Origin: Desulfobulbus oligotrophicus
Lineage (GTDB): Bacteria > Desulfobacterota > Desulfobulbia > Desulfobulbales > Desulfobulbaceae
Direction of reading: 5' to 3'
Length of the DNA: 64,000 bases
Assembly: GCF_016446285.1 (NCBI RefSeq)
Contig: NZ_CP054140.1
Coordinates: 911,501-975,500 of the forward strand
The notes under the pieces are model-generated. The model did no database searches, was not told where the DNA came from, and saw only the letters and a program-made list of their open reading frames with translations. This document shows, one piece after another, positions 30,043-36,292 of the stretch (positions within the stretch are counted from its first letter, which is position 1; each line of letters begins with the position of its first letter). The position numbers and the translations under genes were made by a program.

Positions 30043-30351
30043 TCAGGCGATCGCTTCGATCGCTTTAATGATAACGGGTTTTTGTTTCAGACCTTCCAGG
30101 CGGCTGACCTCTTTGCCGTCCTTGAAGAACAGCATGGTGGGGAAGCCCTTGACACCAAGACGTTCTTTCAGTTCCCGGTTCTCGTCGAAGTCGATGATAT
30201 AGATGGGAAAGTCGGGGTTTTGCTTGGCAATGTCCTTGAGGACAAAGGACAGCATCTTGCACGGTCCGCAGGTCTTGGAATAAAACTCGATCAACATGGG
30301 GACATTGTGATCAAGGGACTCATAGTCTTTTTCAGTTATTTCGGTAATCAT
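30043..30351 (-). CDS. Thioredoxin
   Basis: A 102-residue thioredoxin-fold protein with the active site TCGPCK near residues 27-32 and the cis-Pro in GFPTMLFF. It reduces disulfides with electrons from thioredoxin reductase. The residue before CGPC is Thr rather than the usual Trp. AAGGAG precedes the ATG. It lies between trxB (32 bases upstream) and the arylsulfotransferase gene (13 bases downstream), all on the minus strand, so the three form one operon, and a service role for the sulfotransferase is likely. Confidence 0.9.
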   Translation of the reverse strand: MITEITEKDYESLDHNVPMLIEFYSKTCGPCKMLSFVLKDIAKQNPDFPIYIIDFDENRELKERLGVKGFPTMLFFKDGKEVSRLEGLKQKPVIIKAIEAIA

Positions 30352-30383
30352 AATTGGTTACTCCTTGATAAAAGAGACGGCTC

Positions 30384-31313
30384 TTACTGTTTGAGAGATT
30401 CAACATAGGCAGCGGCGCTGTTCGCTGCCACGGCCCCGTCTGAACAGGCGGTGACAATCTGCCTGAGATGCTTGACCGTGATGTCGCCTGCTCCGAAGAT
30501 ACCGGGAACAGAGGTGCGCATCCGGCTGTCGGCCTCAATACAACCGGTGCGGTCGACAATGCCGAGCTTGGCAAAGGCTTCGGATGATGCTGAAAAACCG
30601 ATGTATTCAAAGACACCGTCGCAGGTGACGTACCGTTCGGTGGCGTCTTCTTTGGTTGATTTAAAGCGCACACCGGTTATGCGGTCGGTACCGGTAAATT
30701 CTAAGACTTCCTGGTACGGATAGATGGTGACATTGGGCATCTTCCGCAGCTGGTCGCAGGCCTTTGGATCAGCGGTCAGGTCGAACATGGTGACAATCGT
30801 CAGCTTGGTGCAGATGCCGGCGAGATAAATGGACTCCTCAACCGCCGAGTTGCCACCGCCGATGACCACCACCTCTTTGTCACGATACTGGGCGCCATCG
30901 CATATTGCACACCAGCTGATACCGTTGGCCGCCCACTCTTCTTCTCCGGGAACGCCGAGGCGTCGCGGTACAGTACCGGTGGCGAGAATCACTGCCCGGG
31001 CCTGATATACGGCGTCGTCCTCTTCGCAGGTAATGGTTTTTAAAGAATCGCTGTTACTGATATCGATGACGGTTTTGTAATCAAATTCCACGCCAAGTTC
31101 CTGGGTGTGTTCAAACATCTTAATAGCCAGGTCGGCACCGCTCAGTTTACCGGCACCGGTGTAGTTTTCGATTTCATTGGTGTTGACCATTTGCCCGCCG
31201 GGCGACAACCGGTCGAGCAACAATACTTTCATATTGGCGCGAACGGCATAAATGGCTGCGGTCATACCGGCCGGACCAGCTCCAACGATGACGATGTCAT
31301 AAATGTTTTCCAT
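30384..31313 (-). CDS. trxB: Thioredoxin reductase
   Basis: This flavoprotein passes electrons from NADPH to thioredoxin. The 309-residue protein has the FAD-binding GAGPAGMTAAIYA, the NADPH-binding VIGGGNSAVEESIYL and the redox pair CAICD (about residues 135-139). The ATG at 31313 (MENIYDIVIVG) follows AGGGAG by eight bases; a longer in-frame reading upstream has no family character. Length fits the low-molecular-weight class. It is the first gene of the trxB-trx-arylsulfotransferase operon and is preceded by the shared operator. Confidence 0.92.
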   Translation of the reverse strand: MENIYDIVIVGAGPAGMTAAIYAVRANMKVLLLDRLSPGGQMVNTNEIENYTGAGKLSGADLAIKMFEHTQELGVEFDYKTVIDISNSDSLKTITCEEDDAVYQARAVILATGTVPRRLGVPGEEEWAANGISWCAICDGAQYRDKEVVVIGGGNSAVEESIYLAGICTKLTIVTMFDLTADPKACDQLRKMPNVTIYPYQEVLEFTGTDRITGVRFKSTKEDATERYVTCDGVFEYIGFSASSEAFAKLGIVDRTGCIEADSRMRTSVPGIFGAGDITVKHLRQIVTACSDGAVAANSAAAYVESLKQ

Positions 31314-31847
31314 GATTATATCTCCCTGGCGCCCCGGGTTATCAAGGTTGGCGGAGCATGCTATGAGTGAAATGTGGTGCGTGTGCACTGTCCTGTCCAG
31401 TGGAACCGGGTGTGACCTGTTGTGGTTGCTGAGCCTTCTCCTGGATGTCTGATGACAGATTGTTCCTCTTCAAGCCGATGGTGCCAGTTAAAGAAAAAAA
31501 GATCATTCAGACAACTCGCAAAACTACGAGGTTTTGCTTTTTCTTTTTCCAGGGAACTGGTGGGCAGAGCAGGAAAAACACCAGAGACCGGCAGTGAATT
31601 GCCAGTATTCAGGAAGGTTTCCTGTTGGATATCGCAATGCTGTCAATGGAGAAGAGGCGGAAAGGACGTAGAGAGGTACCGGATTTTAATATACTTCTAA
31701 ATACGTGTAGTCTGTGTGGATGCAAGATGATACAGCATGGTTGCCTGTGTTGTTTTAGAAACAGACACTGTTGCCTTTCCTCATGAAATGGTTAATAGTA
31801 GCTCGTGATATTGTATAGATACTCTAATCGTTAAGGAGAAAGCAGTT
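31314..31847. other. Intergenic region between trxB operon and BI-1 gene
   Basis: This 534-base divergent region contains the shared operator (31513-31553) and its -10-like box (about 31486-31491, TTAACT) towards trxB, with a leader of about 160 bases. Towards the BI-1 gene no clear sigma70 pair was found. No gene is supported. Confidence 0.5.
31486..31553 (-). promoter_or_regulatory. Regulated promoter 3: shared operator before trxB-trx-arylsulfotransferase operon
   Basis: AACTCG (31513-31518), eight bases ending TA, CGAGG (31527-31531), then CCAGG (31549-31553) after exactly 17 bases, on the plus strand. In the operon's direction a weak -10-like TTAACT (31491-31486) begins about 22 bases after the palindrome. 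Confidence 0.7.
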
Positions 31848-32785: not shown

Positions 32786-33706
32786 ATGTCTGTTTATGTT
32801 ATTGGTCACAAAAGTCCGGATACCGATTCTGTCACCGCTGCTATTGCCTATGCTGCATTGATGAAGGCAAAAGGCGAGGATTATGTTCCCGCTGTCTCTG
32901 GTAAGTTGAATCCTGAATCCGAGATGGTACTTAAGCAGTTCGGTTTTGCCACACCCGAACTTCTGACCGATGCCACCGGCAAGAAGATTGCCCTTGTCGA
33001 TCACAGCGATCTTACCCAGGCTCCCGATAACCTGAATGCCGGTGAAGTTGTCGCTGTTGTTGATCATCACAAGATCGGTGATGTGACCACAAACCAGCCG
33101 ATTTTCTTTTTCAATATGCCGGTTGGCTGCACCGGTACAGTCCTTAAGATTCTCTATGATATGGAAGGTGTCAAAGTTGAGCCGAAGGTTGCAGGATTGA
33201 TGCTGGCCGCCATCTTAAGCGATACCGTTAACTTCAAGTCCCCAACCACCACCGACGCTGACAAGAAGGCTGTTAAAGAACTGGCAGCCATTGCCGGCGT
33301 GACTGACACCGAGGGTCTGTTCATGGAGATGCTGAAGGCAAAGAGCGCTGTTGCCGGAGTACCTGCCATGGATCTGCTCCACCGTGATTACAAGGATTTT
33401 GATATGAACGGCAAGAAGGTTGGTGTGGGACAGCTTGAACTTGCCACCCTTGATCAGGTTGCTGATATGCGTGATGCCCTTTACAATGCCATGAAAGAGC
33501 AGAAGGGGACAGAACGTCACTCGGTTTTGCTCATGCTGACCGATGTGGTGAAAGAGGGGACTGATCTGATGGTCATTTCCGATGATCCGGCTTTGATAGA
33601 AGGTGCTTTTGGTGACAAACTGGACGGCGTTTCAATGTGGATCGATGGTATGATGAGTCGTAAAAAGCAGACTGTTCCCAACCTGCAAAAGGCTTTTGGC
33701 TGCTAA
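32786..33706 (+). CDS. ppaC: Manganese-dependent inorganic pyrophosphatase (family II)
   Basis: This cytoplasmic enzyme splits pyrophosphate to two phosphates; family II enzymes are fast and need Mn2+ or Co2+. The 306-residue protein has the DHH-type metal and substrate motifs: GHKSPDTDS at 7-15, VDHS, VVDHHKIGD, SDTVNFKSPTTT and the C-terminal SRKKQ lysines. There are no CBS or DRTGG inserts, so it is the short soluble type. Sulfate activation makes much pyrophosphate, which fits a sulfate reducer. The gene is monocistronic with its own promoter and terminator. Confidence 0.95.
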   Translation: MSVYVIGHKSPDTDSVTAAIAYAALMKAKGEDYVPAVSGKLNPESEMVLKQFGFATPELLTDATGKKIALVDHSDLTQAPDNLNAGEVVAVVDHHKIGDVTTNQPIFFFNMPVGCTGTVLKILYDMEGVKVEPKVAGLMLAAILSDTVNFKSPTTTDADKKAVKELAAIAGVTDTEGLFMEMLKAKSAVAGVPAMDLLHRDYKDFDMNGKKVGVGQLELATLDQVADMRDALYNAMKEQKGTERHSVLLMLTDVVKEGTDLMVISDDPALIEGAFGDKLDGVSMWIDGMMSRKKQTVPNLQKAFGC

Positions 33707-33783: not shown

Positions 33784-34785
33784 CTACTTTCTCTCATTAC
33801 CGCAGAGGAGTTTTTCGGTGAATGCATCTGCCGTTTGCTGCGCCTCTTGCAGTAAGGCCTCAATGTTAAGATCGCTGACCAAAGACTGTCGAATCGGCAG
33901 GAAGCGATTGCTGTAGGTGGAGGCTGCCTGTTGTGCCCCCTTCTGGTCTAATGGAATCGGCAGCTCGGTCCATGCGCCGCGGTGTTGCCAATCAATATCA
34001 AGCACACCAAGATATTTACCACGGATATCTGTTTGTATAAGAAGCGCATTGTTGACCGGTATCGGGTTCATATTACCGATGGCATGACCGGTCTGCAGGA
34101 TTACATCTATCGAGCTGAAGGCACGCGCGATTTCCAGATTTTCACTGTAGGGGTAGTTCGACAACAACAGCACGAAATCCGTGTCCTTCTCTGCCGTCGC
34201 AACACTTGCCGGTAATGTTGCCCGCCAATCCTGGACAATAAAATCACGCCCGGTATTTTGAAAAGCAGTGTGATCGGTAACAGCCAGAATGGCTATTTTG
34301 ACACGACCGGCCTGGCGGTGGAGTATGGGTGTAAACAGGGGCTTGAGCGAAGTCGGGTCAACAAGATTTGCCGACAGCCAGTTGAAAGCCGGCGGTTTGT
34401 GCAACTGCTGCAGCCATTCCATCCCTGCGGCCAGGTCCAGTGAGCCGATGCCGGCAAAGGTTGCCCCCATCTTTTGAGTGGCGGCAAGGACGCCTGCACT
34501 GGTCGCCAGTTCTGCTTTTTGAGCGTCTGCTGCATCCAGGTGATCGGTGGGGAAAAGAAGGTTGCCGCCGGTGACCACCAGGTTTGGCTGCTGACCATCT
34601 CGTTGCAACTCTTGAATCAGGGAAGCTTTTTTGGACAGACCGCCCAATCTGCTCTTGCCTCAACCGCTCCCGTCCACATTGCCGAGGTTGTCGTTACTGT
34701 ACAGGAGGCGGAAGTCGGCACCTTCAACCCGGCTCGCCAGGACGGCAACCAGGAGGATGAACAAAAAACAGCCAAGGTGTTTCAC
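33784..34785 (-). CDS. UshA/5'-nucleotidase-like exported protein with predicted selenocysteine (in-frame UGA)
   Basis: The reading frame is continuous from GTG 34785 to the stop at 33784 except for one TGA at codon 42 (34662-34660). Before it are a signal peptide (HLGCFLFILLVAVLASRVEG) and LYSNDNLGNVDGSG; after it are GKSRLGGLSKKASLIQEL, NLVVTGGNLLFPTDH, IGSLDLAAG and VILQTGHA, the layout of a UshA-like phosphoesterase-fold family whose members carry a PCGC motif at this place. The TGA aligns with the second Cys, and a small hairpin follows it. I read it as selenocysteine, giving 333 residues. Several usual metal ligands (GD, NHE) are lost, so hydrolase activity is doubtful. GTG starts one base after the rarA stop. 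A nonsense mutation is the alternative. Confidence 0.65.
34633..34662 (-). promoter_or_regulatory. UGA codon and candidate bacterial SECIS hairpin
   Basis: The in-frame TGA at 34662-34660 is followed, eight bases on, by a small helix CAGA/TCTG (extended by a G-T pair) with an eight-base G-rich loop TTGGGCGG. Bacterial SECIS elements lie just after the UGA with a G-containing loop, so this fits in position and form. Confidence 0.5.
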
Positions 34786-34786
34786 T

Positions 34787-36148
34787 TTATACTGCTGGTG
34801 GAGTCTGTGTATGTTGTTGACGTTTTTCAAGAATCTGTTTCCATTTAGTGAGTCGGTCTTTAATGACGGCCTCATAGCCGCGGGTGGTCGGTTCGTAGTA
34901 GGTGGTGCCGGTGAGTTCCGGGGGTAGGTGTTCCTGAAAGACTATGCCGTCACGATGATCATGGGCGTACTGGTACCCCCGGCCGTAACCAAACTCCCGC
35001 ATGAGTGCGGTCGGTGCATTGCGCAGGTGAAGAGGAACCGGCAGGGATCCGGTACGCTGGATATCCTTCTGGACGCTTTTGGTGCACAGGTAGACGGCAT
35101 TGCTCTTGGGTGCGGTTGCCAGATAGATGGTTGCCTGCATCAGGGCCAGTTCACCTTCAGGGGTGCCCAGCAGATGGTAGGCCTCCCGGCAGTCGAGTGC
35201 AACGCGCAGAGCCTGGGGGTCGGCGTTACCGATGTCTTCAGAGGCAAAGCGGATCATTCGCCGGGCAAGATAAAGGGGATCTTCACCGCTGGCAAGCATC
35301 CGGCCCAGCCAGTAGACCGCCCCGTCGGGATCACTGTCACGCATGCTCTTGTGGAGGGCGGAGATCAGATTGTAGTGTTCTTCTCCCTTGGCATCGTAGC
35401 GGAGTGTTTTCTGCTGGAGTGTTGTAGCTATGGTTGTCGAAGAGATGGTGGGGGTGTCTGAAGACACCGAGTCCTCCTGGTCTTTGGCCTCCACGGTAAG
35501 CCTGGCGGCTGTTTCCAGATAGTTCAGGGCGCGGCGGCCGTCACCGTCTGCAGCCCTGCAGAGCAGGTGTAGCGCTGCTTCGTCAATACCCAGATGATAC
35601 GAGCCCAGTCCATGTTCTGTGTCGGTCAGGGCACGTTGCACCATCTGCTCTATATCGTGGGGAGTAAGCGGATGGAGGGGGAGAACCTGGCAGCGGGAGA
35701 GAAGGGGTGCCGTGATTTCAAAAGACGGATTTTCAGTGGTTGCTCCGATCAAAGTCAGCAGGCCGCTTTCCACATGCGGGAGGAAGGCATCTTGTTGACT
35801 TTTATTGAATCGATGAATTTCATCGACAAAGAGAATCGTTGGTTTGTCGGTTTGCTCACGAAGCTCCTGAGCATCTTTGACGATTTGCCGTATCTCCTTG
35901 ACCCCGGAAAGGACGGCGGAGAAAAAGACAAAATGGGCGGAGATCGTGTGGGCAAGAAGAGTGGCCAGCGTTGTTTTCCCGGAACCGGGCGGCCCCCAGA
36001 GGATCAGTGACGGTATGGCCCCGCTGTCAATGAGCTGACAGAGAAGCTTGCCTTCTCCGACCAGGTGTTCCTGACCGATGAAGTTCTTGAGACTTTTGGG
36101 ACGCATCCGTTCGGCAAGCGGACGCTGGTGCGATGTAGGGACTGTCAT
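34787..36148 (-). CDS. rarA: Replication-associated recombination protein A (AAA+ ATPase)
   Basis: RarA (MgsA) is a clamp-loader-like AAA+ ATPase that acts at stalled replication forks. The 453-residue protein opens with RPLAERMRPKSLKNFIGQEHLVG, then Walker A GPPGSGKTTL, Walker B ILFVDEIHRFNK, sensor IGATTENPSFE and the C-terminal tetramerisation region with MRDSDPDGAVYWLGRML and FASEDIGNADP. The start at 36148 (MTVPTSHQ) is one of two close ATG codons; neither has a clear ribosome binding site. The UshA-like gene follows with a one-base gap after the TAA, so the two are probably co-translated. Confidence 0.93.
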   Translation of the reverse strand: MTVPTSHQRPLAERMRPKSLKNFIGQEHLVGEGKLLCQLIDSGAIPSLILWGPPGSGKTTLATLLAHTISAHFVFFSAVLSGVKEIRQIVKDAQELREQTDKPTILFVDEIHRFNKSQQDAFLPHVESGLLTLIGATTENPSFEITAPLLSRCQVLPLHPLTPHDIEQMVQRALTDTEHGLGSYHLGIDEAALHLLCRAADGDGRRALNYLETAARLTVEAKDQEDSVSSDTPTISSTTIATTLQQKTLRYDAKGEEHYNLISALHKSMRDSDPDGAVYWLGRMLASGEDPLYLARRMIRFASEDIGNADPQALRVALDCREAYHLLGTPEGELALMQATIYLATAPKSNAVYLCTKSVQKDIQRTGSLPVPLHLRNAPTALMREFGYGRGYQYAHDHRDGIVFQEHLPPELTGTTYYEPTTRGYEAVIKDRLTKWKQILEKRQQHTQTPPAV

Positions 36149-36292
36149 GACAAAATCATACACGAGTCTGATGAAAAAATACAGGCGTGAGAAGCGGCAG
36201 GTTTCATTTCCGTTCTCTTTCTTGTCGAGTTTTTATCCGGATGGTACTATGAACAGACAGGTTGATTAACTTTATTCGTATGGGCGTTTTGC

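Follow-up and report, generated by a model that had tools for sequence, protein, structure and literature searches.

The 64,000-nucleotide stretch of Desulfobulbus oligotrophicus DNA analysed here, referred to as the window, harbors on its minus strand a reading frame that is interrupted by a single TGA. This locus raises the question of whether the codon is read as selenocysteine (Sec) and, if so, what the selenol would do in the encoded UshA-like protein.

The in-frame UGA and its conservation

The features relevant to this question are the following:

33784..34785, minus strand: gene of the UshA-like selenoprotein, 333 residues with the TGA read as Sec; open frame with one TGA and a match to the NCBIfam model NF041198
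34785 (start GTG) to 33786-33784 (stop TAG), minus strand: the reading frame
34717..34785, minus strand: signal-peptide-like hydrophobic N-terminal stretch, residues 1 to about 23, from sequence and alignment, its end judged by eye
34663..34668, minus strand: Ser40-Gly41 (AGC GGT), where Cys-Gly precedes Sec in most relatives
34660..34662, minus strand: in-frame UGA, almost certainly Sec codon 42; all 36 Sec loci read share this TGA codon, and 12 homologues have a Cys codon instead
34631..34647, minus strand: bacterial SECIS hairpin with a 6-bp stem and the 5-nt loop GGUCU, the apical loop lying 18 nt past the UGA
34787..36163, minus strand: upstream neighbour from the list of open reading frames, presumably a RarA/MgsA-like AAA ATPase
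32786..33706, plus strand: convergent neighbour from the same list, which we take to be a manganese-dependent inorganic pyrophosphatase-like (ppaC-like) gene

Apart from the TGA at 34662-34660, the read-through frame of 333 residues contains no stop. The initial annotation had described one TGA in an otherwise open frame and the sequence context DGSG-U-GKSRLGGLSKKA, and both recur in the read-through translation, with the TGA at codon 42. The GTG at 34785 sits one base past the stop of the upstream rarA-like gene. A TTG further upstream in the same frame is a possible alternative start; we favour the GTG because the closest relative, L018, has the GTG but lacks that TTG. The export that had been proposed on account of the N-terminal hydrophobic stretch is likewise supported by the sequence, the stretch being judged by eye. 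Among 38 homologous loci, whose flanks are short, a rarA-like gene is found upstream in 34 and a ppaC-like gene downstream in 20, and these neighbours are of little help in assigning a function. About 3 kb off in the window (30043-31388, minus strand), a thioredoxin-like open reading frame with a CGPC motif adjoins a thioredoxin-reductase-like one, both named by the look of their translations.

For the Sec machinery, the organism's own genome (one contig of 3,102,012 bases) was searched with family cut-offs applied. The initial annotation had called for a check for selA, selB, selC and selD, and we observed a single tRNA-Sec (71.5 bits) as well as selA (619.2 bits), selB (347.7 bits) and selD (361.5 bits), all above their cut-offs. 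The selD gene (L048, G000:C1:1078205-1079146) itself has one in-frame TGA and is probably a selenoprotein gene, as is common for selD.

All 23 genomes of the genus have a homologue, as do 181 of the 193 genomes that were sampled across the order. Among the matches listed for the order, counted by hand, 138 of 150 contain one TGA inside the match, one of them with an additional TAA near the match end, and 12 contain none. All 12 TGA-free homologues among the matches listed (L031 and L063-L073) encode Cys, by TGC or TGT, at the Sec site. Moreover, the TGA occupies the same codon in all 36 Sec loci read, always just before an LGGL-type stretch; L052 was omitted from this set because it duplicates L018, and the site is missing from the fragment L060. 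The search for both kinds of homologue at codon 42, as suggested at the outset, thus yielded 12 Cys homologues and 36 Sec loci, and in the alignment the UGA falls on the second Cys of CGC relatives, the position to which it had been assigned. Among the matches listed, seven genomes (G019, G029, G038, G053, G062, G080 and G093) carry both a Sec and a Cys copy.

In addition, the window gene was compared with L018 over the 282 codons downstream of the UGA, which gave dN 0.158 and dS 0.851 by NG86 and dN 0.178 and dS 0.613 by YN00, that is, a dN/dS of about 0.19 or 0.29, respectively; two more distant comparisons with dS over 2 were left out. Judged by these substitution rates, purifying selection acts on the part of the protein encoded after the UGA.

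The hairpin downstream of the UGA

An alignment of the 36 Sec genes from the UGA onward was folded by RNAalifold and yielded a single 6-bp hairpin with the loop GGNCU, 12 nt after the UGA, in which positions 34647-34642 of the window pair with 34636-34631. Pairing in this stem amounts to 99.0% of 210 cells, compared with 24-59% in slid controls. Four of the six pairs are invariant and the five besides the outermost hardly vary; among 35 distinct rows the outermost position has CG 19 times, UA 14 times and no pair twice, which includes 14 double changes, and the covariation of the SECIS thus rests on this one pair. The Cys genes are the best control for the hairpin core, since the peptide that they encode is much alike: 36 of 36 Sec genes contain the core TGGGCGGNCTGYCCA, versus 1 of 12 Cys genes. 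The one Cys copy with an intact core, which follows a TGC codon, is L070 (G062:C62), and a further one, L073 (G093:C53), is one base off the core. In both, Sec seems to have been exchanged for Cys recently, with the hairpin left behind.

Folding energy by itself does not single out a hairpin in the window sequence (z -0.36; an equally good fold in 67 of 200 shuffles). According to the available part of a 2026 review (PMC13188914), the bacterial SECIS model comprises a stem of 4-16 bp, a loop of 3-9 nt with a G in the first two loop positions and a spacing of 16-37 nt between UGA and loop. The window hairpin, with 6 bp, 5 nt, GG and 18 nt, conforms to these rules. The published model further sets an energy of -7.5 kcal/mol or lower; the 24-nt hairpin alone (-6.4 kcal/mol) is weaker than this limit, whereas the fold of a 53-nt stretch (-12.7 kcal/mol) passes it. 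An Rfam scan of the window at gathering thresholds returned 0 matches, which neither supports nor opposes the SECIS.

The small hairpin placed eight bases after the UGA by the initial annotation, which we take to be a 4-bp stem starting at that distance, turned out not to be conserved. It is paired in 57.1% of 140 cells at a shuffled mean of 57.7%, and it was rejected as the SECIS, the conserved stem being the 6-bp one that begins 12 nt after the UGA.

Taken together, the TGA at 34662-34660 almost certainly encodes selenocysteine, because the genome holds the Sec machinery, homologues carry Cys at the site, and the TGA is conserved together with the hairpin. A nonsense mutation or a sequencing error, leaving a broken gene whose halves are not joined, would be in keeping with the interrupted frame, and a TTG downstream at 34647 might restart translation. 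However, the TGA recurs at the same codon in the 36 loci read and as the single TGA in most of the matches listed, the downstream part appears to be held by purifying selection, and the hairpin is fixed at synonymous sites only alongside the TGA, with the one exception among the Cys genes. The probability of such a defect is thus next to nil, and it was rejected on account of the shared TGA and the Cys at the site in homologues, as had been anticipated when error and mutation were deemed unlikely.

A known family and its reduced form

The best NCBIfam match of the read-through protein by far is NF041198, 'UshA-like (seleno)protein' (271.7 bits, E 1.1e-80), the curated cut-off of which, 275, is narrowly missed. 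Within the genus, L019 (290.6) and L022 (286.9) pass this cut-off, whereas L018 (268.1), L026 (269.4) and L031 (251.5) fall short of it; the scores of three long relatives range from 553 to 626 bits. The window protein matches positions 8-274 of the 519 profile positions and nests in the tree among genus members that pass. Judged by sequence, the window gene is therefore a member of the known NF041198 family in the broad sense, in the short form of the genus. With NF041198 (UshA_like_PCGU; COG0737 UshA-like selenoprotein, Zhang and Gladyshev 2008) it shares the N-terminal domain, the Sec codon and the order, and with the long relatives also the SECIS core; unlike the family model, it has 333 residues instead of 519 positions, lacks the cytochrome tail and carries SGU in place of CGU.

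The UshA-like assignment of the initial annotation is thus upheld, both by this match and by the profile alignment to E. coli UshA described below. The claim of a new selenoprotein, made along with the statement that none had been described in this family, is contradicted: in the available parts of the sources, the 2008 Global Ocean Sampling paper (PMC2398784) includes UshA-like CxU selenoproteins in a table and UshA-like selenoproteins are listed in a 2022 review (PMC9312934) and in the 2026 review, which names NF041198 (PMC13188914), so that the family has been in print since 2008 and has an NCBIfam model. What was not spelled out is that the window copy lacks the first Cys of the motif. In the parts of the open-licence literature that were available, we found no report of a cytochrome tail or a lost partner Cys in UshA-like selenoproteins.

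Other models match far less well. NF049981 (UshA_like_Sel_2, family 2) likewise describes a short UshA-like domain (262 positions) with Sec, yet the window protein scores 36.3 bits, far below the cut-off of 140, and the family 2 motif is given as CxxU in the available part of the 2026 review (PMC13188914). Pfam gave only KfrB on the read-through protein, at 13.5 bits versus a cut-off of 25. A search of solved structures returned one weak relative (3jyf, E 0.0028), a search of plasmid records one distant UshA-type match, and a search of genome contigs one relative, from a Desulfobulbus sp. MAG, identical in sequence to L018.

The long relatives are joined to a cytochrome. The Cytochrome_C554 domain scored above its cut-off in five of five long relatives scanned, and four CXXCH motifs follow the Sec in 14 of 15 loci outside the genus. 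The remaining locus, L043 (G033:C8), has 341 codons after the Sec, a shortened C-terminal part and no CXXCH; judging from it, loss of the heme tail may have occurred repeatedly. No CXXCH is present in the 22 genus rows that include the Sec site, the window among them; three of these rows are truncated by a contig end.

All 15 loci outside the genus have a Cys at position -2 from the Sec, as do 17 of the 22 genus rows with the site. The five genus rows without it are the window and L018 (SGU), L026 and L057 (SGGU) and L021 (CSGU, with a Cys at -3); the window motif thus reads SGU instead of CGU, and the PCGU (CxU) motif is absent. In a tree of 34 proteins the window groups with L018 (100/100) and L026 with L057 (100/100), and L021 stands beside L022 (99/87). 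Since the Cys-less rows fall on three branches and CGU is the state of the other rows, the simplest reading of the sequences would be that the partner Cys was lost on three separate branches of the genus. In L018 the stretch that starts 20 residues before the Sec and runs to the protein end is otherwise free of Cys; the window protein, L026 and L057 each have a single one close to the C-terminus.

We tentatively consider an order of events in which the lineage would have shed the heme tail first and then, three times, the partner Cys, with the Sec being kept. An internal CxU bond would then not be open to the selenol. On what would be a dead phosphatase scaffold, it might be a lone nucleophile in the periplasm, or it might take part in an exchange whose other half is a thiol or cytochrome on another molecule; we regard this as a possible course, somewhat short of an even chance.

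The UshA metal site and a proposed role of the selenol

A profile of 34 family members was aligned by hhalign with E. coli UshA, the 5'-nucleotidase/UDP-sugar hydrolase, over 232 columns (probability 97.4%), the aligned part being its N-terminal metallophosphatase domain. Unlike UshA, the window protein has no C-terminal substrate domain and carries a Sec, and five of the seven UshA metal ligands as well as His117 are replaced in it. The UshA metal ligands we take to be Asp41, His43, Asp84, Asn116, His217, His252 and Gln254, with His117 and Asp120 as catalytic residues. Given this set, Asp41 and His252 match D32 and H234 of the window protein, and His43, Asp84, Asn116, His217 and Gln254 correspond to L34, N75, S115, N210 and I236, so that five of the seven ligands are replaced; His117 and Asp120 correspond to L116 and A119. 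In the alignment H234 is not constant among genus members, and the Sec follows D32, in a loop. Structure prediction from the sequences of the window protein and L052 reached a mean pLDDT of only 34.7 and was discarded; where the Sec lies in the fold is therefore taken from the sequence alignment only.

Because most of the metal-binding and catalytic residues are replaced, the window protein is probably not a nucleotidase. Were it still a metal-dependent nucleotidase or esterase, the Sec, with or without a Cys, would be a metal ligand or a structural residue. The homology to UshA, weak matches to the SoxB, CpdB and NadN models and the retention of an Asp and one His of the metal set are consistent with such an enzyme; however, the five replaced ligands, the loss of the catalytic His and the absence of H234 in some genus members make it unlikely.

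The reading that we favour is a periplasmic protein that would use its selenol for redox chemistry or thiol exchange, on what would be an inactive phosphatase scaffold. UGA 42 would be read as Sec by means of tRNA-Sec and SelB, the latter recognising the hairpin just downstream, and the protein would presumably be exported to the periplasm. It would fold like the N-terminal metallophosphatase domain of UshA, with the metal and catalytic residues mostly replaced, and the selenol would, according to the alignment, be next to the former active site, in the loop that follows the first strand. The long relatives of other genera combine the CGU pair and four c-type heme motifs on one chain, an arrangement suggestive of a redox centre and of electron exchange between it and the hemes. 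In the window's genus, where the heme tail is absent and some members lack the partner Cys as well, the selenol would need a partner from outside, such as a thiol that resolves it, or would have to act as a nucleophile by itself. These two losses speak against a simple CxU electron relay in the window protein.

The selenol might also replace the dimetal centre in a SoxB-like handling of sulfane-sulfur or S-sulfonate groups. The thiosulfohydrolase SoxB (TIGR04486) is the second-best model for the window protein, with a weak domain match of 42.8 bits, long and short relatives match it too, and the order of the members includes Desulfobulbus, a genus of sulfur-cycling bacteria. This score falls far below the SoxB cut-off of 550, however, and the neighbours seen at the loci were rarA and ppaC, with no sox gene among them, and we thus hold this chemistry to be improbable.

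Taken together, it is highly probable that the window encodes a selenoprotein of the NF041198 type in its short form, with Sec inserted by way of tRNA-Sec, SelB and the hairpin, a presumably exported UshA-like fold in which most metal-binding residues are replaced, and a presumed redox role. As the family is known, the novelty is limited to the reduced SGU form without a heme tail, a modest variant. The available parts of PMC2398784, PMC9312934 and PMC13188914 give no function for UshA-like selenoproteins, and the present data narrow the functional guess: most UshA ligands are replaced, the long form has a cytochrome domain attached, and the Sec outlasts both the hemes and the partner Cys. The family moreover supplies a clear SECIS with a Cys-gene control. 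Because the Sec outlives the hemes and the partner Cys, it is the selenol, and not the CxU pair or the metal site, that is the part to test.
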